A DNA stretch of 64,000 bases from the NCBI GenBank assembly GCA_031265205.1, contig JAISCZ010000088.1:1-64000 (forward strand), read 5' to 3'. The notes under the pieces were generated by a model, which searched no databases, had not been told where the DNA came from, and saw only the letters and a program-made list of their open reading frames with translations. Numbering within the stretch: position 1 is the stretch's first letter; each line of letters starts with the position of its first letter. A program made the translations under genes and the position numbers. Of this stretch, positions 13,744 through 44,606 are shown piece by piece. The stretch comes from Deltaproteobacteria bacterium. GTDB lineage: Bacteria; Desulfobacterota; Desulfarculia; Adiutricales; Adiutricaceae.

Positions 13744-15224
13744 CCCTTCTCGCCTCCCCGCGCCGCCGAGGCCCTTCGCTTTTTGGGCGCGGCGGGCCGC
13801 GGCGCCGCGGCGCGGCCCTCCGGTTCCGCGCCGGCCCGGCTCTCCGGGTTCGCGAAGACGCGGCGCACCTCTTTCTGGAAAGCGAGGCCCCGCTCCTTGT
13901 AATTGGCGAACATGTCAAAACTCGCGCAGGCGGGGCTCAGAAGGGCCACGTCCCCCTTTTTGGCGACGACGGAGGCGAGCACCGCCGCGTCCCGCATGCT
14001 GGGGACGAAGGTGATCGGCGCGAAGCCCTGGAGATCCCGGGCGATTGTCCGGGCGGCCTCCCCCAGGAGGATGAGGTGCCGCGCCTTGGCCGTGACGGGC
14101 GCCAAGAGGGCGCCGTAATCGAGGCCCTTGTCCCGGCCCCCGGCGATTAAGACCACGCTCTTGTCCTTGAAATTGTCGAGGGCGGCGATGGTCGCCCCGG
14201 GATTGGTGGCCTTGGAGTCGTCGTAATAGGAAACGCCGTCGAATTCCCCGATAAGCTGGAGCCGGTGGTCGTCGACGCTAAAATCCCGCGCCGCCTCCAG
14301 GGCCTTTCGCGGGTCGGCCCCCAAAGAGAGGGCGAGGCCCACGGCGGCCAGGACGTTCCCTTGGTTGTGCCGGCCCTTTAAGGCGAACTCCTCCCAGGGG
14401 ACGGAGGCGGCCTCCTTGCCGTCCACGATTATTTTCAGGGTCTCTTTGGCGCCCTTGCGGTGGACGTATCCCCCGTGGGCCGGCGCCTCCTTAAGGGAAA
14501 AGCCGAAGCGGCGGGCCTTATGGCTCTTGTGGACGAGCAGGTACTCGTCGTCGTTTAAAATGGCCCAGTCCGTCGCGTCCTGGTTTTGGAAGATCCTCCA
14601 CTTGCCGTGGAAATAGGAGAGAAAATCCCCGTGCCGATCCAAATGGTCGGGGGTGACGTTCAAAATAGCCGCCCCCTTGGCGCGGAACTTGCTAACGGTC
14701 TCCAGCTGAAAGCTCGAGACCTCCAAAACCGCGCAGTCGTAACGGCCCGGGTCCGCTTGGAGCTCCAAGGCGCAGTTGGCGTAAGGGTTCCCGATGTTGC
14801 CCCCCAAAAAGGGGCGCCGGCCCACTTGGGCGAGAATATGGGCGGCGAGTCCCGCGACGGTAGTTTTGCCATTGGTTCCCGTGACCGCGACGACGGGGAG
14901 ATTCACGACGCGCGCGGCCAGCTCCAATTCCCCCAAGACGGGGATCTGGCTGCGGAAGGCCTCGGGCGCGCCCATGGCCGTGAGGGGCACCCCCGGGGAG
15001 ACGATCCAGAGATCGAAAAAATACCCGGGATGCGGCGCGTCGGGCCCCAAAACCCATTTCGCGCCCAAGCCTTGGAGCCTTTCCTGGGCGCCGCGGGCCT
15101 CCTCGGGGCGCATCTGATCGTAAACGGTGACTTCCAGCCCGCCCGCGCGTAAAAGCTTGGCCGCGGCGATCCCCGACTCGCCGGCCCCCAACACGAGCGC
15201 GCTATTTAAGTTAAAAAGAGACAT
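13740..15224 (-). CDS. murD: UDP-N-acetylmuramoylalanine--D-glutamate ligase MurD
   Basis: A 494-residue Mur ligase that adds D-Glu to UDP-MurNAc-L-Ala. The N-terminal nucleotide fold begins SALVLGAGESGIAAAKLL, the ATP loop is VTGTNGKTTVAGLAAHIL, and the central domain has LNVTPDHLDRHGDFLSY and the C-domain DDSKATNPGATIAALDN. I start it at MSLFNLN (15224); the longer open frame adds 45 residues with no Mur features. The last 35 residues are Ala/Pro/Arg-rich and beyond the usual end. The stop overlaps a small hydrophobic frame by GTGA. Confidence 0.95.
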   Translation of the reverse strand: MSLFNLNSALVLGAGESGIAAAKLLRAGGLEVTVYDQMRPEEARGAQERLQGLGAKWVLGPDAPHPGYFFDLWIVSPGVPLTAMGAPEAFRSQIPVLGELELAARVVNLPVVAVTGTNGKTTVAGLAAHILAQVGRRPFLGGNIGNPYANCALELQADPGRYDCAVLEVSSFQLETVSKFRAKGAAILNVTPDHLDRHGDFLSYFHGKWRIFQNQDATDWAILNDDEYLLVHKSHKARRFGFSLKEAPAHGGYVHRKGAKETLKIIVDGKEAASVPWEEFALKGRHNQGNVLAAVGLALSLGADPRKALEAARDFSVDDHRLQLIGEFDGVSYYDDSKATNPGATIAALDNFKDKSVVLIAGGRDKGLDYGALLAPVTAKARHLILLGEAARTIARDLQGFAPITFVPSMRDAAVLASVVAKKGDVALLSPACASFDMFANYKERGLAFQKEVRRVFANPESRAGAEPEGRAAAPRPAAPKKRRASAARGGEKG

Positions 15225-15301
15225 CTTGACAACCCGCCCCAGGGGGGAAAAGGCCTTCCGCCCTTCCCCCAAGCCCCGCTTTCCGCGGGGGGAAACGACC
15301 C

Positions 15302-16381
15302 CTAGCGCAATTTCAGGGTGGAAAGCCCCGCCAGCGCCAAAATAATGGCGATAATCCAAAAGCGAACGATCACCTTGGGCTCAGGCCATCCCTTGAGCTC
15401 AAAGTGATGGTGCAAAGGCGACATCCGCCAGAGACGCCGACCCTTGGTGCATTTAAAGAAGGCCACCTGGAGGATGACCGACAAAGCCTCGATGACGAAA
15501 ATGCCCCCCACGAGGACCAGGAGGATTTCCTGCTTGACGACGAGGGCCGTAAAGCCCAGGGCCGCGCCCAGGGAAAGGGAGCCGGTGTCGCCTAAAAAAA
15601 TCTGCGCCGGGAAGGCGTTATACCAAAGAAAGCCCAAGCCCGAGCCGATGAGCGCCGCCAGGAGCACCGCGACCTCCGCCGCCCCGGGGATGCGGGCGAT
15701 CTGCAGGTAATTGGCGATGACGCTGTTGCCCGCGCAGTAGGCGAAGACCATATAGGTCGCCCCCGCCATGACGATGGGCCCCGCCGCCAACCCATCCAAG
15801 CCGTCGGTGAGGTTGACGGCGTTGGAGGCCCCCACCAGGACGAGGGCGGCGAAGAGGATGTAGAAAGGCCCGAGGTTGAAAACCAAGGTCTTCAAAACGG
15901 GGAAGGCGAGGGTCGGGTCAAAGCTCGGGTCCGCGTAGAGGTAGGCCCCCGCGGCCAAACCCACCAAGCACTGCAGCGCGAACTTCTTTTTGCCGCTAAG
16001 GCCCTCGTTGCGGCGCCGCTTGATCTTCAGGTAATCGTCGCGGAAGCCGATAGCCGCGAAGAGGAGGATGACCGACCACATGGGGAGGAAAAAGCGCGCG
16101 GTCACGTCGACCCATAAAAGGCAGGAGACGAGGGAGGCCCCCAGGACCATCAGCCCCCCCATGGTGGGGGTCCCGGCCTTTTTCTGATGGCTTTCCGGGC
16201 CCTCGCCGCGGATGTACTGGCGCACGCGATAAGCCTTGATGAAGGCGATGAAACGGGGGCCTAGGAAAAACCACAGAAGGGTGGAGGTGAGGGCGGCCAG
16301 AATTATCCGAAACGTGATGTACTTAAACACGTTAAAGAAGGATATTTCCGTGGATAGCTGGAGAAATAACTTATACAGCAC
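15302..16381 (-). CDS. mraY: Phospho-MurNAc-pentapeptide translocase MraY
   Basis: A 359-residue integral membrane enzyme that transfers phospho-MurNAc-pentapeptide to undecaprenyl phosphate, forming lipid I. Key motifs are FRDDYLKIKRRRNEGLSGKK, NAVNLTDGLDGLAAG, FLGDTGSLSLGAALG and the histidine motif SPLHHHFELKGWPEPKV. About ten membrane helices are visible. The GTG at 16381 gives nearly the length of the E. coli enzyme; a TTG at 16396, overlapping the murF stop, is an alternative. Confidence 0.96.
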   Translation of the reverse strand: MLYKLFLQLSTEISFFNVFKYITFRIILAALTSTLLWFFLGPRFIAFIKAYRVRQYIRGEGPESHQKKAGTPTMGGLMVLGASLVSCLLWVDVTARFFLPMWSVILLFAAIGFRDDYLKIKRRRNEGLSGKKKFALQCLVGLAAGAYLYADPSFDPTLAFPVLKTLVFNLGPFYILFAALVLVGASNAVNLTDGLDGLAAGPIVMAGATYMVFAYCAGNSVIANYLQIARIPGAAEVAVLLAALIGSGLGFLWYNAFPAQIFLGDTGSLSLGAALGFTALVVKQEILLVLVGGIFVIEALSVILQVAFFKCTKGRRLWRMSPLHHHFELKGWPEPKVIVRFWIIAIILALAGLSTLKLR

Positions 16382-26142: not shown

Positions 26143-27267
26143 ATGGCAAAAACATTCAAAACAAAGTATCCGGGCGTTTACTACCGGCTATCCTCCATCA
26201 AAAAGCATGAGGGGAAGCCAGAACGCGTTTTTTATATCGTTTACCAAAACGAAAACGGAAAGCAAATTTGGGAAAAAGTTGGCGTCTCTTCTATTGATTT
26301 CTCCGGTATTAACGCCAACCAAATTAGAACCGATAGGATGCGCGCGGTCCAGGCGAAAAAAAACGGAGAAGAAATCGCCCCTAAAATTCTAACTTTTAAA
26401 GATATCGCTCAAGAGGCGGAAGAAAGACATTTTTACAAATTAGCGCATTTTAGCGACTTTCTTGCGTATCGTAAAAAATACTTCGCGATATTTGACGATA
26501 AAACGCTTTCCGAAATTAACCCTAAAGATATTGAATCTTTGCGGAACAAGCTTCAAGGCGAGGGGAAATGCCCTGGGACTATTATCAATATTTTAAATTA
26601 CTTAAAAGTTATTTTTAACTTAGCTATAAAATGGGATATGTTTCAAGGCGTAAATCCGGTTGTAAAAGTTTCGATCCCGAGAGTGGACGACAAACGGTCA
26701 CGTTATCTTTCTAAGGAAGAAGCCCAAGCTCTTTTGGAAGACCTCAAAAAAAGGTCGCCATATGTCTACGGCCTGGCCATTATTAGCCTCTTTACAGGCA
26801 TGAGACTTAGCGAGACGATTAATCTTAGAGGAGAACATATCAATTTAGAGAACAAAACCATTAAAATCGTAGACACTAAAACTAAAAATAATCGGGTCGT
26901 CTATATTGGCGGCCCTCTCTTGGATTATTTGCGTAATATCCCCATAAAAACTGGGAAGCTTCTTTTAGACCCCCCAAAATGGGCGCATATTAGACAAACC
27001 GCGTCAAAGAATTTTAAAGCGTCAGTCGATCATCTTGGCCTTAACGACGGCATAACCGATCGTCGGGATAAGGTCGTTTTTCACACCTTGCGACATACCT
27101 TCGCCTCCTGGCTGGCAAGCCAGGGCCAAAGCCTCTACACCATCGGGACGCTCCTTGGGCACTCAAGCCCGGAGATGACCAAAAGGTACGCCCACTTACT
27201 GCCGGAAGCAAAGAAGGCGGCGATTGAGTCAATCGACGCCTTCTTTGGGACTCCGCCAGAAAAATAA
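26143..27267 (+). CDS. int: Tyrosine-recombinase integrase
   Basis: A 374-residue phage integrase that joins prophage and host DNA at att sites. The catalytic set is complete: R221 (in FTGMRLSETI), H314-x-x-R317 (FHTLRHTFASWLA), H340 (LLGHSSPEM) and nucleophile Y349 (TKRYAHLL). An N-terminal DNA-arm region (1-80) and a core-binding domain (85-180) precede it. AGGGAAAT precedes the ATG. The gene is richer in A/T than the host genes on its left. It converges with the excisionase-like gene, with 23 bases between the two. Confidence 0.95.
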   Translation: MAKTFKTKYPGVYYRLSSIKKHEGKPERVFYIVYQNENGKQIWEKVGVSSIDFSGINANQIRTDRMRAVQAKKNGEEIAPKILTFKDIAQEAEERHFYKLAHFSDFLAYRKKYFAIFDDKTLSEINPKDIESLRNKLQGEGKCPGTIINILNYLKVIFNLAIKWDMFQGVNPVVKVSIPRVDDKRSRYLSKEEAQALLEDLKKRSPYVYGLAIISLFTGMRLSETINLRGEHINLENKTIKIVDTKTKNNRVVYIGGPLLDYLRNIPIKTGKLLLDPPKWAHIRQTASKNFKASVDHLGLNDGITDRRDKVVFHTLRHTFASWLASQGQSLYTIGTLLGHSSPEMTKRYAHLLPEAKKAAIESIDAFFGTPPEK

Positions 27268-29674: not shown

Positions 29675-30508
29675 TTATTTCCCTCCTATAATGATGTTCT
29701 TGACCTGCTCGCTCGCAAGCTTCGCGCGGTTGTCATAAACTTCCCGGACAGTAAGTCCAGCATTAGTCCTAAAATTCCAAAGGTTGAAGCCTTGAGGCAG
29801 GCATCCGAAACACGCGGCCGCATGCGCCACGCTCCAACCGTCTTCGTCAGCGAAGGCCCATAAGGTGAAATCTTTAGGTAGAAGGCCATACTCCGCGGCT
29901 TGGTGCGCTACGGTGTAGCCGTTGGCAGTGGCGAGGCGCCATTTGTTAAACCCAACGGGAAGATGGTTTTTCCGCGCCGCTTGATGCGCCACCGTCCATC
30001 CGTTTACGTTAGCAAGCTCCCACTGGTCGAAGTTATCTGGCAAAAAATCCTTAGTAACGGCAACGTGCGCAACTGTGTTGCCGTCATCATCGGCGAGACT
30101 CCATTGGTCGAAGGCATCGGGTAAATAGCCGTAACATGCGGCGACGTGCGCCACGGTCCAACCATTCTTACTGAAGAGCTTCCATTGGTCGAAGCCAACG
30201 GGCAAATGACCGTATCGCGCGGCCACGCTCGCCACGGTTTCACCGTCCTTGTTGGCGAGACTCCATTGGTCAAAACCATCGGGTAAAGGCCCGTAGCAAG
30301 CAGCTTCATGCGCTACTGTCCAGCCATCCTTACGGGCGATGGCCCATTGATTAAAAGCAGAGGGCAAGTAGCCAAATTCAGCGGCAATGTGCGCCACGGT
30401 AAGTCCGTCTTCGTTAGCCAGCTCCCATTGGCTGAAGTCATCGATCAAAGAACCGTTCCTTGTTATCCGGAAAAGCGTTTCAATCGACGGATAAATAAAA
30501 CATATCAT
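29675..30508 (-). CDS. Ankyrin-like repeat protein C (about 9 repeats)
   Basis: A 277-residue protein with nine regular repeats of 27 residues, the cleanest of the set (for example LPDGFDQWSLANKDGETVAS). Each unit keeps the LP-x-x-F-x-x-W pair and the TVAHxAA helix. It opens with a short hydrophobic cap (MICFIYPSIETLFRI), too short to be a sure signal peptide, and ends with TVREVYDNRAKL plus a basic tail. AGGAGAGG precedes the ATG. No catalytic motif is visible; likely a protein-binding scaffold or decoy. Confidence 0.85.
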   Translation of the reverse strand: MICFIYPSIETLFRITRNGSLIDDFSQWELANEDGLTVAHIAAEFGYLPSAFNQWAIARKDGWTVAHEAACYGPLPDGFDQWSLANKDGETVASVAARYGHLPVGFDQWKLFSKNGWTVAHVAACYGYLPDAFDQWSLADDDGNTVAHVAVTKDFLPDNFDQWELANVNGWTVAHQAARKNHLPVGFNKWRLATANGYTVAHQAAEYGLLPKDFTLWAFADEDGWSVAHAAACFGCLPQGFNLWNFRTNAGLTVREVYDNRAKLASEQVKNIIIGGK

Positions 30509-30537: not shown

Positions 30538-31020
30538 CTAGATGTCGCTAACCATCGTAGCTTCTCTCAATTTACGAAAGAGAGATTCTACGCTCATGCC
30601 GTAGTTATTAACGAGGCACCAAACGTTTCTATCGCCCGCCCAAGGGATTTTTTTTAAAAGCTTTTTGCTTTCAAAAATATGCCCGACAAACGCATGCGCG
30701 ACCGTGTTTCCGTCGTTGTCGGCAAGATGCCACTGGTTAAAATCATCTGGCAAATGGCCACTTTCCGCCGCCACGTGCGCGACCGTCACTCCGTTAACAT
30801 TGGCAAGCTCCCACTTGTCAAAGCCTTTAGGCATGGCTCCATGAAGCGCGGCCATGTGGGCGACCGTTACGCCGTCATCGTCGGCCAGTTCCCATCTGTC
30901 AAAGTCCGATGGCAAAATCCCAAAGACGGCCGCCGCGTGGGCGAGGGTCGCGTTCGGCCCCAAACTAGCGTCCCACAGCCTATAATCCGCGGGCAAAATG
31001 TGAATTAGACGAGTAGCCAT
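30538..31020 (-). CDS. Ankyrin-like repeat protein D (about 5 repeats)
   Basis: A 160-residue short member of the family. It begins MATRLIHILPADYRLWD, nearly the same as protein E (MATRLSPILPADDNKW), so D and E arose by a recent tandem duplication. About five repeats follow, then a divergent C-terminal cap with a tryptophan-rich segment (KKIPWAGDRNVWCLVN) also shared with E. AGGAGAAG lies before the chosen ATG; the open frame extends upstream into the end of E. Function unknown. Confidence 0.85.
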   Translation of the reverse strand: MATRLIHILPADYRLWDASLGPNATLAHAAAVFGILPSDFDRWELADDDGVTVAHMAALHGAMPKGFDKWELANVNGVTVAHVAAESGHLPDDFNQWHLADNDGNTVAHAFVGHIFESKKLLKKIPWAGDRNVWCLVNNYGMSVESLFRKLREATMVSDI

Positions 31021-31031
31021 AATTTCTTCTC

Positions 31032-31607
31032 CTACCTGAAAAGATTCTTGATATCGCGCAACATTGCCGCTTGCAATTCCTGGTGGTAATACTCCGCGAC
31101 ACTCATGCCGTCTTTGGTGCTGAGTTTCCAAACGTCGCTATCATCGGCCCAAGGCAACTTTTCCTCAACCCCTTTTTCGGCGGCGCGCTCAACAAACAGA
31201 TGCGCGACCGTGATTCCGTCTTTATTGGCGAGATGCCACTGAGTAAAATCATCTGGCAACCGACTACACATCGCCGCCAAATGAGCGACAGTCCAGCCGT
31301 TTTTATCGGTCAATTCCCAGCGGTCAAAGTCCTTGGGTAACTTGCCATGAACTGCTAATACGTGGGCGACCGTCACAGCATCGGCATCGGCCAATTCCCA
31401 TTTATTAAAGCCTTTGGGTAGGGTTCCACAAAGCGCGGCCATGTGAGCGACCGTCCAGCCGTCGACTGTGGCTAGTTCCCATTTGCCAAAATCCAAAGGC
31501 AAAACTCCATATATAGCCGCCGCGTGCGCGAGAGTCGAACCAGTTGTAAGAATCCGGTTCCACTTGTTATCGTCGGCTGGCAAAATGGGACTTAGACGAG
31601 TAGCCAT
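31032..31607 (-). CDS. Ankyrin-like repeat protein E (about 5-6 repeats)
   Basis: A 191-residue close paralogue of protein D with the same N-terminal cap, five to six 27-residue repeats and the same C-terminal cap (EEKLPWADDSDVWKL, then GMSVAEYYHQEL). It is the first of the five repeat genes in transcription order, 29 bases after the hypothetical gene at 31637. Repeats at equal positions in D and E differ most at the residues between TVAH and LP, where ankyrin repeats usually contact partners. Confidence 0.85.
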   Translation of the reverse strand: MATRLSPILPADDNKWNRILTTGSTLAHAAAIYGVLPLDFGKWELATVDGWTVAHMAALCGTLPKGFNKWELADADAVTVAHVLAVHGKLPKDFDRWELTDKNGWTVAHLAAMCSRLPDDFTQWHLANKDGITVAHLFVERAAEKGVEEKLPWADDSDVWKLSTKDGMSVAEYYHQELQAAMLRDIKNLFR

Positions 31608-32675: not shown

Positions 32676-33065
32676 CTATTCGCTAGCGCCAATGTATTTT
32701 TCAAAGGCGCGGATGCCTTCCAGCTGGCCAACGCACACCTGCGCGCCGTAGCCGTTGGCCGCCACCTTCGCCAAAAAGGCCTTCTGCTCAGGTTTCAACT
32801 TCCCCCCAAGCGTCTTAAACTCAATGAAAAGGCCGTGAAACCCATCGCGAGGCTCCGCGATAAACACGTCCGCCGTCCCTTTCCGGACGCCCTCTTCCTT
32901 AAGCCGCCGGCCCGTGATGGGGCTCCTCTTTCCACCATTGGGGACGGCGCAATAGGGAACGTCCGGATACTTCGCGTCTAGCCATTGAACAAAAAGCTTT
33001 TGCTCCATGTGCTCAGTCAAGAGCCCGGCCTTGCCAAGCGGCTTTCGAGGCTTCCTTGGCGTCAT
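32676..33065 (-). CDS. VRR-NUC domain nuclease
   Basis: A 129-residue VRR-NUC protein of the PD-(D/E)xK superfamily, common in phages, where it probably acts on branched DNA or Holliday junctions. The motifs are YCAVPNGGKR, KGTADVFIAEP (catalytic Asp) and GLFIEFKTLGGKLKPEQKAF (catalytic Glu-x-Lys). The start at MTPRKPRK overlaps the stop of the small membrane gene upstream (ATGA). It probably works with the replication genes ahead of it. Confidence 0.9.
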   Translation of the reverse strand: MTPRKPRKPLGKAGLLTEHMEQKLFVQWLDAKYPDVPYCAVPNGGKRSPITGRRLKEEGVRKGTADVFIAEPRDGFHGLFIEFKTLGGKLKPEQKAFLAKVAANGYGAQVCVGQLEGIRAFEKYIGASE

Positions 33066-33211
33066 TTCCGCTCCTTGTCCCAATGGTCGTCCCACTTGAC
33101 CGTGTTATCGTCCCGAAGGTCGCGGTTCACGTCCAAAAAGAACGTTACAGCCTGATAAACCCAATAGATGAGCCCGCTAAGGGCCAAAAATAGAATTAAA
33201 TACGTCAACAT
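33062..33211 (-). CDS. 49-residue membrane-anchored prophage protein
   Basis: Overlaps the primase gene stop at its start (TGATG) and the VRR-NUC start at its end (ATGA), with a near-perfect GGAGGACTG ribosome-binding site. The protein has one N-terminal membrane helix (MLTYLILFLALSGLIYW) and a charged cytoplasmic tail (about residues 27-49, FLDVNRDLRDDNT). Both junctions and the strong site make it a real gene although it is short. Function unknown; possibilities include a membrane anchor for the replication complex or a superinfection factor. Confidence 0.75.
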   Translation of the reverse strand: MLTYLILFLALSGLIYWVYQAVTFFLDVNRDLRDDNTVKWDDHWDKERK

Positions 33212-35262
33212 CAGTCCTCCCTATCGACGGCGCGCAAGAAAAAGGTCCGCGCTTTGTCCGGGTTCATAATCTTTTCAATAGTGCCGCGCTCAAGGCACTT
33301 GGCGACGACCTGGCGCGTATAACGATCCGGCCACCCTAAAGCTTCATGTAGATGTTTTGGAAATATCTTCTCCCCATTAGCGGCCAGGGCCCGCAGCTCC
33401 TCCGGGAGCTTCCGGCAGCTCTCCTCCATCCGGATGAGCTTCTTCGGGTCGTCCTCCTGATAAAGGCGCTTCAAAACCCCATCCGACTTCTCCAGGATAA
33501 TCATCCGTTCGGGCGAGCCCATGTTCTTCTTGACCACCTTCGCCGCCACGTAGCAGCCGTCCTCGCCCTCCAAGGCCTCTTCTCTCTTGAGGAACTTCCC
33601 GGCCAGCTTCCCGCTGATGGGGACGAGCTGCGCCACCCACCGCAGCGCTCCGGCAATCGACGAGGCCCCACGGATGCTCACCTGAGACATCGCCTCCAAG
33701 AGATTCTTCCGGACGTGGATCACGTCGCCGGCGCTCTTATTGGAATGGTGAATCAAAACGATGTTGCAGTTATGCCGTTCCGCCGTCGCCTCCAGCAGAG
33801 CCAGCATGCCGTTCATTAAGACGTTGTTATTTTCGTCCCCGCCAAGGAACCTTACAAAAGTATCCAAAATTAAAATATTCGGTTTATAGTCCATTAACAT
33901 GATGTCTAATTTGGCGTAATTCGGAGCCGGAGCCACGCGGCCCGCCTCAACAAAGGCCAGAGCCACGTCCCCTCTGAAGGTGTGGGCCCGGAAGTCTAAA
34001 CGGTCGATATCCAAGTCCGGAAACATCTCCATCGCCTCTTTTAGCCTGAAATGCTGTATCTGGCTCGTGTCTTCCACGGATACGCTCATCACCCTAAAGG
34101 GGCGCGTCGGGAACCAGTTCTCAAATAAAGGGTTGCCGGAGGCCAGGGCCAGAATCAGCTGCGATGTAAAGAGCCCTTTCCCGCTTCCCGGAGGGCCGAA
34201 AATCATCCCTAGCTGGCCACGCAAAAAGGAGTTATCGAAAATCCAATGGAAAGGCTCAGGGTCGCCCAAGAGGCTTTCCGGAGTTAAAAAATCAGTCCCG
34301 TTACGGTCAAAGTCATCGCAGGTCGAGGCGGCGTCGCCGCCGCGGGGAAAGAACTTAAAGGCCGATTTAGCCGTCGCCCGGACTTCCGTCTCCGGAAGAG
34401 GGTCCGCCGTCGAAATATTGAGGCGGAGCGCCATATTGGCCAGCCCCTCGGAGGTCATGTTCTTAGGGTCCGCCAGGTAACATATTTCGCGGTAAAGCTG
34501 CTGGTTCCTCTCGCCTTCCACGGCGGACTCAAAGTTGACCTTCCGCCCCGTAAACTGAAGGATTTTCCCTGGCCCTAATCCGTTGGCCGCCCCATCGGCC
34601 GCCCCATCGGCCGTCCCATCGGCGGAGGCCTCGCCCTTGGGAAGAGGCCCGGGACCCAGCTGGAACGGCGCGGCGATTCCCGGCGAGCCGCCCGATGGGG
34701 AGCCCTTAGACTTCTTCTTGGATTTGGAGGGCGAGGTAATCTCAGTCTCCGGAAGCTGGTCATAAATAAACTGAGGCGATATCGCCGGGATATCATCGAA
34801 GGGCGGCGCGTGAAGCCACTCGTAGACGTGGCCGCTTTGATGGACTGACGGTGGCATGCAGGTTATGGTGCCTTCCCCTCGGATTTCTCCGGCGTGGCCA
34901 AGGAGCGTCCGGATATTGGCCCCCTTGATAACCTCGTTTGGAGGAATCCGAAAATAGTAGTGCCTTCCGCGAGCGGATATCGCGACTCGGATGGTATCCA
35001 AAGGCACCTGGATAATAGGCTCAAACCAGTTCACCGTTTCTTCGTCGTCGGCGTCCACGGTCCAAAAACCAGAGACGCGACCGTTTACAAGGCCAATATT
35101 CCGAGGATGGGTTACGTCAAACCATTTAATGATTTGCTCTCGGCTTGGGGGATTAGTTTGATAGGGCTTCCAGTTAATGACGCAAGCTTTTCCCTCAAGA
35201 GGCACCACGCATAGCCTTTGGGCGTGATACTCTAAGGCGGCTTTAAGTATTTCATTGGCCAC
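33211..35262 (-). CDS. Prim-pol primase fused to RepA-like hexameric helicase
   Basis: A 683-residue replication protein. Residues 1-170 form a bifunctional primase/polymerase domain: the metal-binding pair D70 and D72 in FWTVDADDEE, H101 in ARGRHYYF, and the GEGTITCMPPSVH motif. A low-complexity linker (Ser/Lys and ADG repeats) joins it to a RecA-like ATPase with Walker A in IFGPPGSGKGLF and Walker B in ILILDTFVRF. The C-terminus is a winged-helix-like tail. It would prime and unwind phage DNA. Three stand-alone copies of the first domain lie directly upstream. Its start is three bases from the last of them. Confidence 0.93.
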   Translation of the reverse strand: MANEILKAALEYHAQRLCVVPLEGKACVINWKPYQTNPPSREQIIKWFDVTHPRNIGLVNGRVSGFWTVDADDEETVNWFEPIIQVPLDTIRVAISARGRHYYFRIPPNEVIKGANIRTLLGHAGEIRGEGTITCMPPSVHQSGHVYEWLHAPPFDDIPAISPQFIYDQLPETEITSPSKSKKKSKGSPSGGSPGIAAPFQLGPGPLPKGEASADGTADGAADGAANGLGPGKILQFTGRKVNFESAVEGERNQQLYREICYLADPKNMTSEGLANMALRLNISTADPLPETEVRATAKSAFKFFPRGGDAASTCDDFDRNGTDFLTPESLLGDPEPFHWIFDNSFLRGQLGMIFGPPGSGKGLFTSQLILALASGNPLFENWFPTRPFRVMSVSVEDTSQIQHFRLKEAMEMFPDLDIDRLDFRAHTFRGDVALAFVEAGRVAPAPNYAKLDIMLMDYKPNILILDTFVRFLGGDENNNVLMNGMLALLEATAERHNCNIVLIHHSNKSAGDVIHVRKNLLEAMSQVSIRGASSIAGALRWVAQLVPISGKLAGKFLKREEALEGEDGCYVAAKVVKKNMGSPERMIILEKSDGVLKRLYQEDDPKKLIRMEESCRKLPEELRALAANGEKIFPKHLHEALGWPDRYTRQVVAKCLERGTIEKIMNPDKARTFFLRAVDRED

Positions 35263-35264
35263 AT

Positions 35265-35849
35265 TTAGCTCTCGCCGTAGGTCGCGGCCTGATTGTTGAG
35301 TAACTTCAAAATCGCGTCCTTAAGTTGGTCTAGGACGACCCACGGCGAAGCCTCCGCCATCTCATTAAACGGAAGCTTGTTAAGCCACTTGTAAACATGC
35401 CCTTCCGGATGGACGGACGGAGGGAGAACGGTAAGAGACCCGGAGCAGCGGATGTCGAGGTTGAGCCCTTTCGCCCTCGGGATAAAGCGTTTGCCGACGT
35501 TATACGCGTCATCTTCCGAGAGCCTGAAGAAGAAGTGCTGGCCGCGCAACGTTTCGGCGATTCCAACCGTTTCCAAAGGCCCCTGGATAAGCGACATGAG
35601 CCAATCGATCGTCTTGGCGTCGTCACAGTCCACGGACCAGACACCGGAAATATAGCCGTTCACAAGGGCGATATTCGGAGGGTTAGCGACGTTAAACCAG
35701 CTCGCGAGTTCCTCTTCCGTGGGAAGACGGCCCCGATATTCCGTCCAATTAAATTCAGGCCTTTTGCCTTTCACTGGCACCACGCTAACGCCTTCGCTGA
35801 CGTATTCGCGGGACGCTTCGTAAATTTGGTTGATAGTTGTTTTGGTCAT
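35265..35849 (-). CDS. Stand-alone prim-pol domain, paralogue 1 (active site kept)
   Basis: A 194-residue protein equal to only the prim-pol part of the neighbouring primase-helicase; there is no helicase. The metal pair D74/D76 (VWSVDCDDAK), the histidine H105 (LRGQHFFFRL) and the GSLTVLPPSVHPEGHVYKW motif are all intact, so it could be catalytically active. By eye about 40% identical to the primase N-terminus. It begins at TAATG with the stop of paralogue 2, so the three domain genes and the primase are one translationally linked set. Confidence 0.88.
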   Translation of the reverse strand: MTKTTINQIYEASREYVSEGVSVVPVKGKRPEFNWTEYRGRLPTEEELASWFNVANPPNIALVNGYISGVWSVDCDDAKTIDWLMSLIQGPLETVGIAETLRGQHFFFRLSEDDAYNVGKRFIPRAKGLNLDIRCSGSLTVLPPSVHPEGHVYKWLNKLPFNEMAEASPWVVLDQLKDAILKLLNNQAATYGES

Positions 35850-36478
35850 TAGTTTTCCTCTTTTGCCTGGCCCGGCTGCGGGCCCGGCTGTGGGGTTGGC
35901 TCCAGGTTCGCCTGAATCGGAGCGTTCTTGGGGCCGATGCGATCCAAGATAATCCGCGGGGAGACCACGGCAAGCTCCTTAAACGGTGGCCTATTAATCC
36001 AATAGTAAATTGTCCGGCTTGGAAGGCTGACGGACGGCGGAAGGCAAGTAATCGTCCCATTGCCGCAGATTTCGACGCAAAAGGCCATTCTCTCTTTGGT
36101 TATTTTGTTTTGGGCCGTATGGACGACCACGACACGGCTCCTGACGCGCTCGATGTCCTCCGGAAGTTTAAATAAATAGATCAGCCCACAAAGGGTACGG
36201 AAGACGGCGACCTTTTCTAAGGGCTCGGGGATAAGCTTTTTAAACCAATTGTTGGCGACCGTGCTATTGCATTCCACGGACCAAAGCCGGGAGGAGCCGT
36301 TTAGAACGCCGATATTGGGCGGATTTTCAACGTCAAACCACTTCGTAAGCTCCTCAAGAGTCGGAAGCTTATCCCTGTAGAGCGACATGTTAACTTGCGG
36401 GATTTTGCCCTTCATGGGGATGACGCTTATGCCCTCGTCCACGTACTCAAGGGCGGCGTCGTAAATCGGGTTGCTCAT
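35849..36478 (-). CDS. Stand-alone prim-pol domain, paralogue 2 (catalytic residues changed)
   Basis: A 209-residue relative of the primase domain. The overall pattern is kept (EGISVIPMKGK, NPPNIGVLNG, GNGTITCLPPS), but the metal pair reads E69 and N71 (LWSVECNST) and the histidine position is isoleucine (TLCGLIYLF). The histidine after PPS is lost as well. It is therefore probably not a polymerase and may bind template, the active paralogue or the primase. The C-terminus is Pro/Gln-rich. The stop overlaps paralogue 1 (TAATG). Confidence 0.85.
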   Translation of the reverse strand: MSNPIYDAALEYVDEGISVIPMKGKIPQVNMSLYRDKLPTLEELTKWFDVENPPNIGVLNGSSRLWSVECNSTVANNWFKKLIPEPLEKVAVFRTLCGLIYLFKLPEDIERVRSRVVVVHTAQNKITKERMAFCVEICGNGTITCLPPSVSLPSRTIYYWINRPPFKELAVVSPRIILDRIGPKNAPIQANLEPTPQPGPQPGQAKEEN

Positions 36479-36501
36479 TTAGTTCTCCTTGCTTAAAGAG
36501 T

Positions 36502-37092
36502 TTAAAAGGGAATGTCAGCGCCATCCGCTAACGCGGCCATTAGATTTTTCCTCTCGCCAACTTTCACTAAATCCGGAAGATCAAAAATGAAGCGCGGCGA
36601 GACAACGGCTAACTTGTTAAAAGGAACTTCGTTTTCCCACTCCGCCACGGCTCCGTCGTGATAGATTGTCGGAGGAAGGCAGCAGCAATCCCCAGAACCG
36701 CTAACCTCGATGCATAAGGAATTAGCCTCGGAGCCAAATATCCCATGTTCGACGCGCGAGACATCTTCTGGAAGACGAAACAAAAAGCCCTTCGTGCGCG
36801 GGGTCTTAATAATTCCAACGGCGCTTAATTTCGCCGGGACAATTGATTTAAACGAATTTTCGCTCATATTAGCTACGTACACGCACCAGATTTGAGAATA
36901 AGCGCCGCACAGGACGCCCACACCCTGAACGTCGGGCGCGTTAAACCAAAGCTTAAGGGTGTTCCCCGAGATAAACGGTAACGTTCGCATGTAGCTAAAA
37001 CCATCTATCATCACTTTATTGTCCTTCAGCGACGCGACAATCGCGCCTTGGGACGAGTACTTAAGGGCGGCCTCGTAAATCTGAGCGTTCAT
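36502..37092 (-). CDS. Stand-alone prim-pol domain, paralogue 3 (catalytic residues lost)
   Basis: A 196-residue, most divergent member. The position of the metal pair reads Y72 and A74 (IWCVYVANMS), the histidine is replaced by glycine (TPRTKGFLFRLPE), and the last motif is GSGDCCCLPPTIYHDGAVAEW. The fold-defining hydrophobic pattern and the WFN...V.GVGVLCGAYS segment are still recognisable, so it is not random decay: the frame is intact. Probably a non-catalytic accessory subunit. First of the prim-pol set in transcription order, after the nuclease. Confidence 0.82.
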   Translation of the reverse strand: MNAQIYEAALKYSSQGAIVASLKDNKVMIDGFSYMRTLPFISGNTLKLWFNAPDVQGVGVLCGAYSQIWCVYVANMSENSFKSIVPAKLSAVGIIKTPRTKGFLFRLPEDVSRVEHGIFGSEANSLCIEVSGSGDCCCLPPTIYHDGAVAEWENEVPFNKLAVVSPRFIFDLPDLVKVGERKNLMAALADGADIPF

Positions 37093-37108: not shown

Positions 37109-38248
37109 TTATAAAGCGGAGAAATAATCGTCCATTAAATCGGCCGGGACATACGACTCGCAGCCCTTCAAGTCGTCAAGAGGCTTCCGCCGTGAAACTT
37201 GAGCGCACCACGGCTTCTTGGAAGCCGGGATATGGCCGATAATCTTCCATATGTCCTCAATCGTGATGACGGCCCCTCGCCGCTCTTGCCGCAGCTTATT
37301 CAAGCCAACCGTGTACATCGGGAGGCAATCGGCGATAACTTCCAAAGTTTTATCCTCCGTTTTGGCGTCCGCGCGGCGGGAGAGGACCGTTTTTGTCCGG
37401 TTCCGATTGCAGTTAATCTCCGCGACGCTCCGAAAAGACTTGCAATCCAAGCACCGCGTATCCTGGACCTTGGGCCAAAGCTCATATTTCGCGCAAATTG
37501 GTTTATAGCCGCAAATATTGCATTCCGAGAAGCGGTTCGGGAAATCGCTCGGCAAAGGGTCCGGAGCCTTCCGAGACGTCAAAATCGACGCCGCGCGAGC
37601 CATAATCCGCTTGTAAAGGTCTTCCCGATAATTCACCGTCTCAACGTGAATCTTTTGGGTGTCCTTGTTTTCGACGATAAAAAGAGCCTTGTTTATCGGC
37701 GTACCCGGAGGGTTGCCGAGTTGCCTCTGCAAAGGCGCGATAAAGCTTTGCAGGCGGCCTAAATAGACCTGAATTTGAGATAGATACATGCTGTTAGACT
37801 TAACGCCATGGGTAACGTACTTGGCGAAGCCGGCGTCGTTAACTCCCTTTATTTCCAGCAAATAGGGTATCGTCGCGCCCGGAAGCGTTATTAGCCCGTC
37901 CACGTGTCCCATGAAACGGTAATTAAAGCCGTACAAAGTCCCTTGGTGGTAATAGATGAAGCATCCGCCCTTGATAAGCTCGCGCTTAATCCTGGTCTCA
38001 AGGTTATGTCCCGCTTGAAACTTCCGCGCGACGACATCAGGGATAGGCTCGGCGTTGGCCCCACGGTATTTAAACCAAACATTCCGGGAGCAAGGATGGC
38101 CGATATAGGACATGCCTAAATATTCCCGGCCTAGGCTTCCTTCCTCGTTTAATTTCAAGGCCCCATCATAGACAGCCTGGGCCGCGATTTCCGCCAGGCT
38201 GGGGGGAGCCACGGTTCCTTGGAGCTCGTCTTTAATCTCGTCTACCAT
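37109..38248 (-). CDS. Cas4-like PD-(D/E)xK nuclease
   Basis: A 379-residue nuclease of the Cas4/RecB-C family. The core shows MGHVDGLITL (catalytic Asp), YLLEIKGVNDAG (catalytic Glu-x-Lys) and SQIQVYLG (motif with Gln), followed by clustered cysteines (CNICGYKPIC, CLDC) that may bind zinc or an iron-sulfur cluster. It probably processes DNA ends in phage recombination together with the helicase, whose stop it overlaps (ATGGTAG). I use the ATG at 38248 next to AAGGA; the open frame extends five codons to a TTG. Confidence 0.85.
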   Translation of the reverse strand: MVDEIKDELQGTVAPPSLAEIAAQAVYDGALKLNEEGSLGREYLGMSYIGHPCSRNVWFKYRGANAEPIPDVVARKFQAGHNLETRIKRELIKGGCFIYYHQGTLYGFNYRFMGHVDGLITLPGATIPYLLEIKGVNDAGFAKYVTHGVKSNSMYLSQIQVYLGRLQSFIAPLQRQLGNPPGTPINKALFIVENKDTQKIHVETVNYREDLYKRIMARAASILTSRKAPDPLPSDFPNRFSECNICGYKPICAKYELWPKVQDTRCLDCKSFRSVAEINCNRNRTKTVLSRRADAKTEDKTLEVIADCLPMYTVGLNKLRQERRGAVITIEDIWKIIGHIPASKKPWCAQVSRRKPLDDLKGCESYVPADLMDDYFSAL

Positions 38249-39948
38249 TCCTTCACCTTCCAAAATTCGCCGTCTCGCTTCAGTTCCACCGCGCCAGTAA
38301 ACCGTAGCTCATTCTTGCGGGATACGGCCATGTCTACCGTGCCCGGAGGATTCGTGTTTGTGGCGTTCATGCGCCAGAATTGCTTGGCCTTTTTTTGTCC
38401 ATATTGCGAGCCGGTACCCTCAAAATCGAAGTATTGAAAGAAATTCAAAACGCCGTCATGGACGCAAGTTCCAAGCGACTTAAGCTTTTTCGCGTCTATT
38501 CTGTCGAGGTTTGAAAACCTGGCGAAGACGCTCAAGCGAGCCATCCGATTCCCTTTGCGGCTGACATGCGGCTCCATGTCCCACTGGAGAATCTCGGCCT
38601 TAAGCTTGATGTCTTCTTGAAAAAATATCTCGTACAAAGCGACCGCGTCGGCTTCCGACAACCCCTTTTTTTGCGCCGGGGGTTGCCAAACATAGCCGCA
38701 CTCCGGGCAAAGGTACTCGCCGTGCGGGACATAGGTCCGGCATATAGGGCAAACCTTAAAGCCGGGATGCTCATCCTCCGTAGACTCCGACACGGTGGGA
38801 TCGCTTGGATGCCCATGCCGAGTAAAATTACCCACCAGATCCAGGACTAAAACGTCTTTCTTGCCCTCGCGAATTCTCGTCCCACGGCCCACCATCTGAA
38901 CGAAGAGCCCGGGAGACAGCGTCGGCCGCGCCATCAGAATCAGATCGACGCGAGGGCTATCCCATCCTTCGGTTAAGACCCCCACGTTAACTAAGATGTC
39001 AAATTTGCCCTCGGCGAAGGAGTTAAGGGTCCGCGTCCGCGCTCCCTTGTCAAGCTTCGAGTGCACCACGCGAGCCTCATAGCCGGCGCGGTTGAAAGCG
39101 TCGGTCAAAACCTCGGCGTGCTCGATGGTCACCGCGAAGACCAAAACATTTCTCCGGCTTTCTCCAAACTCTTTGTAAGCGTTAACCGCGCTCTGGATGT
39201 GGACTTTCTTGGACATCAGCTCGGAAAGTTGTCCCTGGTGATATTCCCCTTCCGTCGTCTTGATGGATTGAAGCTCATCGTCAATCCTGGCGGCTTCCTT
39301 GGCCCTAATCGGCACCAGCCAGCCCTCTTCCACCAAGTCGTTCATGGTGATTCTGTAATCAACATCCGAAAAAAAATCGTTCTCGTGTCCGTAGATGTAG
39401 CCCGTGTTGAGCCGAAACGGTGTCGCCGTCACGCCTAAAACGCGCATCGTCGGGTACTTAAGTAGCAATTTTTCTATAACTATTTGATATTGAGACGGAC
39501 CGACATCAGTCAGCTTGCCAATGTGATGCGCCTCGTCCACTATTAATAAATGGATATCCCTCGCTACGGTCCGCGTGGCCAGGGTTTGAACCGTCCCAAT
39601 GATGATGGGGTATTCCGTGTTGACCTTCTGAAGGGAGGCGCAGGCAATCCCAATCCGGCCGTAGGCTGACGGCCAAACCTTTTGCAGCTTGTCCCTTGCC
39701 TGCAAAACAAGTTCCGTCCGGTGCGCGAGAATGCCAACCGACATCTTGGGATATGTCTCCATATAATGCTTCGCCAAAGCGCTAAAAATGATGGTCTTCC
39801 CTCCGCCCGTGGCCATTTCCAAGAGGACGCGCCGCTTATTCTGAAGGGCTTCCAACAGAGCCACGACGCAATCCTCCTGGTAGGGCCGAAGGACGAATTC
39901 TTGCTCCTCGGGCGAGGGCAAAAAGCTAGAAGGGAAGGTCAGCGTCAT
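38242..39948 (-). CDS. SF2 DEAH-type DNA helicase with zinc-ribbon segment
   Basis: A 568-residue helicase of the RecG/Rad25-like phage group. Walker A ATGGGKT (46-52), Walker B IVDEAHH (DEAH at 138-141), motif III VTATPFR, and motif VI FVQMVGRGTRIR are present. Two CxxC pairs (CPICRTYVPHGEYLCPECG) about residue 395-412 suggest a zinc ribbon. The C-terminal 130 residues lack a known domain. Its start lies within the end of the upstream SSB-like gene. It likely serves strand exchange or replication restart. Confidence 0.93.
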   Translation of the reverse strand: MTLTFPSSFLPSPEEQEFVLRPYQEDCVVALLEALQNKRRVLLEMATGGGKTIIFSALAKHYMETYPKMSVGILAHRTELVLQARDKLQKVWPSAYGRIGIACASLQKVNTEYPIIIGTVQTLATRTVARDIHLLIVDEAHHIGKLTDVGPSQYQIVIEKLLLKYPTMRVLGVTATPFRLNTGYIYGHENDFFSDVDYRITMNDLVEEGWLVPIRAKEAARIDDELQSIKTTEGEYHQGQLSELMSKKVHIQSAVNAYKEFGESRRNVLVFAVTIEHAEVLTDAFNRAGYEARVVHSKLDKGARTRTLNSFAEGKFDILVNVGVLTEGWDSPRVDLILMARPTLSPGLFVQMVGRGTRIREGKKDVLVLDLVGNFTRHGHPSDPTVSESTEDEHPGFKVCPICRTYVPHGEYLCPECGYVWQPPAQKKGLSEADAVALYEIFFQEDIKLKAEILQWDMEPHVSRKGNRMARLSVFARFSNLDRIDAKKLKSLGTCVHDGVLNFFQYFDFEGTGSQYGQKKAKQFWRMNATNTNPPGTVDMAVSRKNELRFTGAVELKRDGEFWKVKEW

Positions 39949-40720
39949 CCGCTCCTACCTCTCCGGCATCGGGTAAATCAGCGTCAGTGGGAAGATCGTC
40001 GGGCGCGACCGCGACCGCGACTTCGTCAGCCTCTATGGCCGCGAGGGCCTCCTCATCGGCCGCGACCGCCGCGAGGGCCTCCTCGTCTACGGTCGAGGCC
40101 GCGACGGCCTCTTCCGTTTGAACCGCAGCCGCCTTTTTAGGAGGCGTCTTCGCTTGGGCCGAAGCCGTCTTCGCGGCCCCTCCGGGCGCGGCGCTCCCCG
40201 TGGGAGCCGCGGAAGCGCCCGACGGGGCCGCCGCTTTGGCCGGAGCCGTACTCGGTTTCCCGGTTGGCATGCCTCCCGTCTTTTTGGGCATGGCCGAAAA
40301 CGGATTGAAGGTGTCAACCGCGTTCTCTTCCTTCTCGGAGTTGTACTGCTTCTGCACAACAAGGTTAAAAACGCAGACCTGGCCAATCAGCTTCGGAAGG
40401 TCTTTTAAGGACAAGACCTGAGTCGCCGATTCCTTGCCCAAGGCCTTAAACAGCTTTTCAAGGATGATCTCCGTGCGTTTCATGGCCTTCTCGGAGCCGT
40501 CAATGAAAAGCCGCTCCTGGATTAAGCAGCCCTCGTATTCCGGGACACCCGCCGTCACCGTCGCCCAAAGATCGACGAACCGGTTGTCGTTTTTGGCCGG
40601 TTTTATGTCGGCTTTAATGATTTTGGCCGAGTAGCGGCCTTCAGGTAAAAGGTCCGGGCGCGACCAATCGTCGCCTTCCCCATGCCTGGGGTTGTCAGAA
40701 TCAATGTAAAAGGGCATCAA
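39926..40720 (-). CDS. DUF669-like single-strand-binding protein with SSB-type acidic tip
   Basis: A 264-residue protein. The N-terminal 130 residues match the DUF669 pattern (LLPEGRYSAKIIKADIKPAK, then KKRTEIILEKLFKALG-like helices), thought to bind single-stranded DNA in phages. A long Ala/Pro/Lys and then acidic linker follows, and the last residues read GADDADLPF, which resembles the SSB tip DDDIPF that recruits partner proteins. It therefore could serve as the phage SSB. It lies between the Sak4-like ATPase and the helicase. The linker carries simple DNA repeats, so its length may vary. Confidence 0.8.
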   Translation of the reverse strand: MMPFYIDSDNPRHGEGDDWSRPDLLPEGRYSAKIIKADIKPAKNDNRFVDLWATVTAGVPEYEGCLIQERLFIDGSEKAMKRTEIILEKLFKALGKESATQVLSLKDLPKLIGQVCVFNLVVQKQYNSEKEENAVDTFNPFSAMPKKTGGMPTGKPSTAPAKAAAPSGASAAPTGSAAPGGAAKTASAQAKTPPKKAAAVQTEEAVAASTVDEEALAAVAADEEALAAIEADEVAVAVAPDDLPTDADLPDAGEVGADDADLPF

Positions 40721-40798: not shown

Positions 40799-41587
40799 CT
40801 ATGCTAAGGGAGGCCTCTCGGGGAGCTTCCCCACCATCTTTTCCAGCAGGGCCGCGAGGTTAAACTCAGGCTCGCAAATTTCCAGCTTCCCGCTCCGGTC
40901 CTTGCCCGGCAAAAAGCCGTTCTTCGCGGTGTAAAGGCTATAGGTGAAGGAAGTTTCCCCCTCGTCCAAAATCTTGTTCATGTGGAAGACCTCGTCAAAC
41001 CACGCGAAAAATTCGCCCCGCGCGTCGCGGCCGCGAAGCCGGGGCTCAATCTTCCGGCTTCCATCGTCGGCAAGGTGGTTATCTTCCAAAACCGTCGTTA
41101 CGGTAATAATGGGAAGCTCGCAGAAGGCCACCATCAGCTTCCGCAGGTCCTCGCTAATCTTCCCGTAAAGACCAAAGCCCGACATGCCCTTGTTCACGCA
41201 CTCGGTGTAAAGGATGTTCATTAGAGCCGTGGCGGAATCCAAAACCACGATGTTAAAACGGTCCGGGTTCTGGTAAAGCCAGTTGACAATGCCCCTAAAC
41301 TCCGCGCTAGTCTTCACAAGCCGCATGTCGAAGTCTTCCGGACGGGCCAAAACGTCGTCCACGACCGACATAAGGCCGTTTTCGGTCACCAGGCCTAGGG
41401 TTCGAGAGCCGGGAGGCGTCGTCCCGAAGGCCATCCGCGTCTTGCCCACGCCGGAATCCCCAACCAGGCAAATGGAGAACGAATGCCGCATCCGAAGCAT
41501 GTTTATTTTCTTCGGGATAGCCGTCGCCGCCGCGGGCTGAACTTTAGACTTGACGGCCGGAAGCGCCCTTTTTGCCGTCTCGCTCAT
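40799..41587 (-). CDS. Sak4-like RecA-type ATPase
   Basis: A 262-residue phage P-loop NTPase. Walker A GDSGVGKT (43-50) and Walker B NIVVLDSAT, followed by a RecA-like motif ITVTTVLEDN, place it with the Sak4/AAA_24 group, which stimulates single-strand annealing together with an SSB. The SSB-like protein is the next gene. It starts at TAATG with the upstream stop. Role: homologous recombination during phage growth. Confidence 0.82.
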   Translation of the reverse strand: MSETAKRALPAVKSKVQPAAATAIPKKINMLRMRHSFSICLVGDSGVGKTRMAFGTTPPGSRTLGLVTENGLMSVVDDVLARPEDFDMRLVKTSAEFRGIVNWLYQNPDRFNIVVLDSATALMNILYTECVNKGMSGFGLYGKISEDLRKLMVAFCELPIITVTTVLEDNHLADDGSRKIEPRLRGRDARGEFFAWFDEVFHMNKILDEGETSFTYSLYTAKNGFLPGKDRSGKLEICEPEFNLAALLEKMVGKLPERPPLA

Positions 41588-44086: not shown

Positions 44087-44121
44087 CGAGGACAATACAC
44101 TCGGATAATCGGGTTTGTCAA
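44087..44121 (-). promoter_or_regulatory. Leftward early promoter overlapped by operator 2
   Basis: On the minus strand TTGACA (44116-44121) is 18 bases from TATTGT (44092-44097). An imperfect copy of the operator, CGAGGACAATACACTCG (44087-44103), covers the -10 element; its centre is 36 bases from that of operator 1. Repressor binding here would block the early operon. On the plus strand GATAAT (44104-44109) could be the -10 for the repressor gene. Confidence 0.55.
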
Positions 44122-44132
44122 GGAATTTTTTT

Positions 44133-44606
44133 ATGCCTAGCGAAAAAAAAGTTAACCCTATGATTAAAGAATGTTTGGTGCGCTTTCGGAAAGGCCATAA
44201 TCTTTCCCAAGAGCTTTTCGCGAAAGCAATTAAAGCCGGCTATTCGACCGTGGCCGGATGGGAAAAAAGCCTTAGCTCGCCTGATATGGAGAATATGCTA
44301 AAGATTCTGAACGCTTTTGGCTGTACCTTTGAAAAAGTTATGGAAGGCGCGATTAATCCAATCGACCTAAACGCCATTCCATTTTGGCTCTCCCCTTTTT
44401 GCCAGTGCCTTCATAAGGTCACTCCGCAAGAGAGAGACATGGTGATCATCTTCATGGAAGGCTTAAAACTAACGGTGGCTACCAGGGAGGCCAAAGAAGA
44501 GGAGGACGCTAAAAAGCCACCTAGGCAAAAGAGAGCCGCGAAAAAGGCATCGGACCAGGAGCCAACCGTGGCCGATGGGCTCCCCGCGGAGGTTCCCGAG
44601 GCCTAG
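44133..44606 (+). CDS. CI-like prophage repressor
   Basis: A 157-residue protein with an N-terminal helix-turn-helix (GHNLSQELFAKAIKAGYSTV, then AGWEKSLSSPDMENMLKIL) of the Cro/CI type, followed by a helical middle and a Lys/Glu/Ala-rich tail. There is no LexA-like peptidase domain (no Ser/Lys dyad or Ala-Gly cleavage site visible), so induction would not follow the RecA self-cleavage route. AAGGAA precedes the ATG. It is transcribed away from the early operon and is followed by a strong terminator. Confidence 0.8.
   Translation: MPSEKKVNPMIKECLVRFRKGHNLSQELFAKAIKAGYSTVAGWEKSLSSPDMENMLKILNAFGCTFEKVMEGAINPIDLNAIPFWLSPFCQCLHKVTPQERDMVIIFMEGLKLTVATREAKEEEDAKKPPRQKRAAKKASDQEPTVADGLPAEVPEA

Follow-up and report, generated by a model that had tools for sequence, protein, structure and literature searches.

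The stretch of DNA analysed here, referred to below as the window, comprises 64,000 nucleotides (nt) of contig JAISCZ010000088.1 from Deltaproteobacteria bacterium (assembly GCA_031265205.1), and it carries a prophage whose replication operon contains an array of four consecutive genes for primase-polymerase (prim-pol) domains. One of these genes encodes a full-length primase fused to a helicase, hereafter the primase, and the other three, paralogues 1 to 3, encode the prim-pol domain alone. The members of the array are as follows:

33211-35262, reverse strand: the primase, a prim-pol/PriCT-1/AAA_25 helicase fusion of 683 amino acids (aa) with a GTG start, assigned by Pfam and by reading of its residues (PF09250 at residues 8-158, E 3e-18; PriCT_1 at 246-302; AAA_25 at 329-510, E 4e-28)
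35265-35849, reverse strand: paralogue 1, a stand-alone prim-pol domain of 194 aa (PF09250 E 8e-23)
35849-36478, reverse strand: paralogue 2, a stand-alone prim-pol domain of 209 aa with a proline-rich tail (PF09250 E 3.5e-10)
36502-37092, reverse strand: paralogue 3, a stand-alone protein of 196 aa with the prim-pol fold (PF09250 E 0.013, BLASTP and predicted fold)

It is practically certain that these are four homologous, co-oriented prim-pol open reading frames (ORFs), two of them catalytically complete and two not. Transcription proceeds from paralogue 3 through paralogues 2 and 1 to the primase-helicase. The short or overlapping junctions reported by the first-pass annotation of this DNA were found again: 16 nt separate the upstream Cas4-like gene from paralogue 3 and 23 nt separate paralogues 3 and 2, paralogues 2 and 1 overlap by 1 nt, and 2 nt lie between paralogue 1 and the primase. 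Shine-Dalgarno-like sequences precede paralogue 3 (AAGGA) and paralogue 2 (AAGGAG), and no dedicated promoter stands out at the array, where the promoter scan did not rise above chance. The three paralogues lack the PriCT-1 region (primase residues 246-302), and paralogue 1 shares 40% identity with the prim-pol domain of the primase. The PF09250 profile places the primase and paralogues 1 and 2 above the Pfam cut-off, and paralogue 3, at 16.4 bits, under the cut-off of 22.8. Despite this score, paralogue 3 is clearly homologous to the other copies, and it is counted as such because of its pairwise BLASTP matches (E 1e-28 to paralogue 2 and 3e-27 to paralogue 1) and a predicted fold that matches the prim-pol domain of pRN1.

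The active sites divide the array into two pairs, and recounting the ORFs, coordinates and residues bore out those given by the first-pass annotation. In the primase, motif A reads D70xD72, motif B RGxH101 and motif C E126xR128, and paralogue 1 likewise retains every catalytic residue (D74, D76, H105, D132 and R134). In paralogue 2, motif A has become E69xN71, the motif B histidine is replaced by I100, and motif C keeps E136 with C138 in place of the arginine; the stretch between motifs B and C is also longer. Paralogue 3 has Y72xA74 in motif A, has lost the RGxH of motif B (G102), and in motif C retains E129 with S131 in place of the arginine. The motif C acid thus survives in all four copies. 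Among 66 distinct relatives, the DxD of motif A is present in 66, the motif B histidine in 56, and the motif C acid is aspartate in 49 and glutamate in 16, so that across 70 domains, the four array copies included, only paralogues 2 and 3 are without DxD. Their losses are concentrated in the catalytic columns, of which 1 of 12 is kept as against 36 of 66 other conserved columns (p=0.004). Judged by motif A DxD/E, the motif B histidine and the motif C acid, activity is expected of the primase and paralogue 1, whereas paralogues 2 and 3, which have lost motifs A and B, should be inactive. The primase is predicted active because it has the full motif set with a motif C glutamate, as do 16 of the 66 relatives; impairment by this glutamate had been considered when aspartate was invariant in the first 32 relatives, and was rejected on the larger set. 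The stepwise loss of the active site proposed in the first pass therefore stands in part, since the losses in paralogues 2 and 3 are real, but two intact and two dead copies, all with the motif C acid, do not form a smooth gradient.

Duplicated genes that have lost their catalytic residues may simply be decaying, and paralogues 2 and 3 could be transient duplicates drifting towards pseudogenes, with no function of their own. Under neutrality, as simulated by evolving paralogue 1 to 41% or 32% identity (300 runs each), a mean of 5.3 or 6.1 in-frame stops is expected, and stop-free runs numbered 0/300 and 1/300, respectively; the frames of the array are intact at pairwise identities of 27-43%. 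In every pair of copies, the second codon position is the best conserved and the third the least (p 1e-5 to 0.04). Pairwise codon maximum-likelihood estimates of omega are 0.27, 0.08, 0.17, 0.19 and 0.30, all below 1, with 0.395 for paralogues 2 and 3 (p=0.001 against 1), although synonymous sites approach saturation and each pairwise value blends the periods on either side of the active-site loss, so the estimates show overall constraint rather than its present strength. The first-pass annotation had named neutral ratios and broken frames as signs of simple decay; as far as this comparison could be run, omega lies between 0.08 and 0.40 and the frames are open.

The predicted structures bear on the same question. 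The AlphaFold2 model of paralogue 2 (predicted local distance difference test score, pLDDT, 86.5; predicted template modelling score, pTM, 0.81) finds its best match in the pRN1 prim-pol (Z 15.2 over 177 residues), as does that of paralogue 3 (pLDDT 83.6, pTM 0.80; 1rni, Z 13.9, 171 residues aligned), the alignments used for folding having contained active relatives. Both proteins are thus predicted to keep the prim-pol fold, and the homology claimed in the first pass agrees with these models and with the BLASTP matches.

Several points weigh against a role of paralogues 2 and 3 as functional subunits, beyond the saturation and mixed history behind the omega values and the active relatives in the folding alignments. 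The codon-position contrast is weakest between these two copies (p=0.04); the branch of paralogue 3 is longer than those of the other three copies (1.3-1.6 in the two trees described below); and the collections searched, in which the source genus is represented by one genome, contain no orthologous array showing cross-species conservation of the two. Decaying duplicates may also occur in this group, for in a related element (L025, G032:C238) an additional prim-pol is split over two frames (14997-16106 and 15745-16020), 2.8 kb beyond an intact prim-pol helicase gene; this is either a decaying duplicate or an assembly frameshift error. The long branch, the weak contrast and this split gene would suit transient duplicates; against them stand the open frames where five to six stops are expected, omega below 1 for every pair, the conserved fold core, the Shine-Dalgarno-like sites and the concentration of loss in catalytic rather than evenly spread positions, and we consider this explanation unlikely. 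The evidence instead supports four open copies under net purifying selection on average and, given the open frames, the omega values, the Shine-Dalgarno-like sites and the predicted fold, argues that paralogues 2 and 3 are not products of simple decay.

The array is embedded in a replication and recombination module, and the principal genes around it are:

26143-27267, forward strand: tyrosine integrase, at the array-proximal end of the prophage (phrog_1 E 3e-64, PF00589 E 8e-27)
32676-33095, reverse strand: VRR-NUC nuclease, downstream of the primase (PF08774 E 4e-9)
37109-38263, reverse strand: Cas4-like exonuclease gene, immediately upstream of the array (phrog_1990 E 2e-47)
38242-39948, reverse strand: DEAD/ResIII-type helicase (PF04851 E 5e-27, phrog_16 E 3e-99)
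39926-40720, reverse strand: DUF669/single-strand DNA-binding protein (SSB) (PF05037, phrog_6015)
40799-41587, reverse strand: Sak4-like single-stranded DNA annealing protein (phrog_124 E 2e-25)
44115-44606: repressor-like helix-turn-helix (HTH) gene

The operon thus runs from the Sak4-like, DUF669/SSB, DEAD helicase and Cas4-like genes through the array with its primase to the VRR-NUC gene. Genes for terminase, portal, head, tape measure and baseplate lie at 46.4-61 kb, and host genes are found on both sides (MraW at 22.3 kb and, near contig position 74.8 kb, a penicillin-binding protein); because of the integrase, the structural genes and the flanking host genes, the element is a prophage of a temperate phage. 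The integrase, terminase, portal, head and tail genes sampled are all open, with no broken gene among those checked. A 49-aa ORF with a hydrophobic N-terminal stretch (33062-33211, reverse strand) starts on the final base of the primase gene and extends into the VRR-NUC gene. Elsewhere in the prophage, three adjacent reverse-strand ORFs (29675-30508, 30538-31131 and 31032-31607) with ankyrin-like 'WELA-GxTVAHxAA' repeats are apparently tandem paralogues, a second tandem gene family within the same element; the first of them has homologues in G036:C212 (L078) and G006:C26 (L027). The source genome also holds a second DEAD helicase of the module type, with 41% identity (G000:C53:29415-31058, L087 and L092), and, close to a contig end, another partial prim-pol (G000:C33:495-773, L068), hinting at a second prophage or a remnant.

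Two other explanations for the inactive copies were weighed. Paralogues 2 and 3 could be regulators or immunity factors that compete for template, helicase or origin with the primase of their own phage, during lysogeny, or with those of superinfecting phages. Catalytically dead copies of an enzyme can exert a dominant-negative effect. A mobile-element Ppol has moreover been linked with defence against incoming DNA in Thermus (PMC7693054). The two genes lie, however, in the replication operon between a nuclease and the primase, in the same orientation and nearly without gaps, rather than beside the repressor-like HTH gene, and they have no promoter of their own that stands out, which makes a regulatory role quite improbable. 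The first-pass annotation had further raised the idea of decoys that absorb a host defence sensing or inhibiting phage primases. Inactive copies with the surface fold kept would suit such a role, and nothing specific speaks for it; a literature query, beyond which no search was made, returned neither a defence of this kind nor a co-occurrence, and paralogue 3 is strongly diverged, with 16 of 39 conserved positions kept. The decoy idea thus found no support of any kind, and we regard it as very improbable indeed.

The relationships among the copies point to a local origin. The four domains of the window form one clade, with support of 100/100, in a tree of 42 prim-pol domains drawn from genomes, phages and viral contigs, and again at 100/100 in a second tree of 14 rows. 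A sister relationship of paralogues 2 and 3 is probable, with support of 96/83 in the first tree and 92/84 in the second. A clean order of duplication was sought and abandoned, as the larger tree gives (para1,(primase,(para2,para3))) and the smaller (primase,(para1,(para2,para3))), and none of the alternative branching orders tested was rejected (p-AU, approximately unbiased test, 0.16-0.42); the clade of four alone is firm.

Two syntenic relatives show what the module looks like without the extra genes. The source genome, a metagenome-assembled genome (MAG), belongs to the same family as Deltaproteobacteria bacterium Smac51, which we take to be Adiutricaceae, known from termite guts; Candidatus Adiutrix is placed in Desulfarculia by NCBI. 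In Smac51, the order is Sak4, SSB, DEAD, Cas4 and helicase, the Cas4-like gene overlapping the helicase gene by one base. Genome G013 has Sak4, SSB and DEAD and then, some 50 nt further on, a prim-pol helicase that is 34% identical to the window primase over about 600 residues. Because the four copies form one clade and the junction is direct in both relatives, the simplest reading is that the three extra genes arose there through local tandem duplication of the N-terminal domain. The DEAD/ResIII-type helicase of the window is 44% identical to its homologues in L023 and L076. At L076:12915-14957 (Smac51) and L075:2567-4603, helicases of the same AAA_25 lineage have an N-terminus in which no prim-pol domain is recognisable; the helicase is retained there, in Smac51 together with the module order, and its primase portion seems to have been replaced or lost.

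Searches of 395 genomes of the phylum, 36 related viral loci that carry a prim-pol gene, 912 phage records and 123 plasmid records yielded no comparable array, in agreement with the view of the first-pass annotation that such a four-gene set is otherwise unknown, within the reach of these searches. PF09250 is present in 51 of the 395 genomes, and adjacent separate copies occur in the source genome only; an overlapping PF09250 pair in G155 proved to be fragments of one broken gene. Among 80 viral loci around related DEAD helicases, the 36 with a prim-pol gene have a single copy each. A sensitive prim-pol query matched 913 places in the phage records and 135 in the plasmid records, and second places were followed up in part, most of the 12 extra plasmid places not being inspected singly; those in a Streptomyces plasmid, a Lacticaseibacillus plasmid and Methanosarcina virus MetMV were set aside because no adjacent copy is annotated in the stretches examined. 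N-terminal extensions before the prim-pol in L025 and L089, considered as fused extra domains, are apparently non-coding frame that happens to be open ahead of the true start. A profile built from paralogues 2 and 3 found no orthologues of either elsewhere in the collections searched, and IMG/VR pattern searches for relatives of the paralogues or the primase returned distant helicase or prim-pol relatives, or nothing. The array is a single locus in a single MAG, and metagenomes lay outside the search. It is real, non-random and unusual.

Taken together, the array is best explained as a tandem expansion of the prim-pol domain, specific to this lineage, in the replication operon of a temperate phage, with the full-length protein as the presumed replicative helicase-primase. 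In pRN1, a helix-bundle domain beside the catalytic core is required for priming and dispensable for extension (PMC8718748); because paralogue 1 has no PriCT-1, this free, putatively competent core would by itself be likely to extend primers, and it may prime when the full-length protein supplies the PriCT-1 region and the helicase in trans. In paralogues 2 and 3, the chemistry is lost and the scaffold and operon position are kept, which fits non-catalytic subunits that might hold template or nucleotide, assist loading or limit the active copies. That the two are pseudo-enzyme subunits of a phage primosome is, in our judgement, an evenly balanced proposition. The fuller arrangement, a heteromeric primosome that combines one helicase-primase with a free catalytic prim-pol core and a pair of dead prim-pol subunits and that arose by tandem duplication in one operon, is put forward more tentatively, as somewhat short of an even chance. 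The heteromeric primosome with inactive subunits suggested in the first pass is what we would infer as the best account of these sequences.

Known systems offer partial likenesses. The prim-pols of pRN1 ORF904 and NrS-1 (PF09250, archaeo-eukaryotic primase (AEP) superfamily) are alike in fold and motifs and share the prim-pol, PriCT and helicase layout of the full-length protein, but each has a single, catalytically intact prim-pol domain, whereas the window has four, two of them without motif A. Thermus ICETh2 Ppol/Hel (PMC7693054) and the Streptomyces plasmid NZ_CP108574 pair, as in the window, a stand-alone prim-pol gene with a neighbouring helicase gene in one replication module, but with one such copy and a separate helicase gene, whereas the extra copies of the window stand beside an already fused primase-helicase. 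Split prim-pol and helicase genes are therefore already known, and it is the extra copies beside a fused primase that are unusual and, within the collections searched, new. Non-catalytic partners have functional, non-homologous precedents. Archaeal PolB2 comprises paralogues of a replication enzyme with replaced catalytic residues, kept in conserved operons and thought to be non-catalytic partners (PMC4104785), but it belongs to another enzyme family, is cellular and widely distributed, and forms no tandem array within one phage. In CCPol-MP of SCCmec (PMC7581432) and archaeal PriSLX (PMC5700102), a small non-catalytic subunit, MP or PriX, enables priming by a catalytic partner from the same element or complex; unlike paralogues 2 and 3, neither is presented as a prim-pol paralogue, and PriX, considered at first as an inactive prim-pol homologue, was not used as a homologous precedent since its described relationship is to the PriL Fe-S domain.

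Prim-pols of mobile elements are usually treated as single self-sufficient enzymes. If the proposed primosome is correct, the array would be a case in which duplication has specialised the subunits of a bacterial AEP, much like the turnover from enzyme to scaffold put forward for archaeal PolB2. Its four proteins would also make a compact system for testing directly what catalytic and non-catalytic prim-pol domains each contribute to priming.

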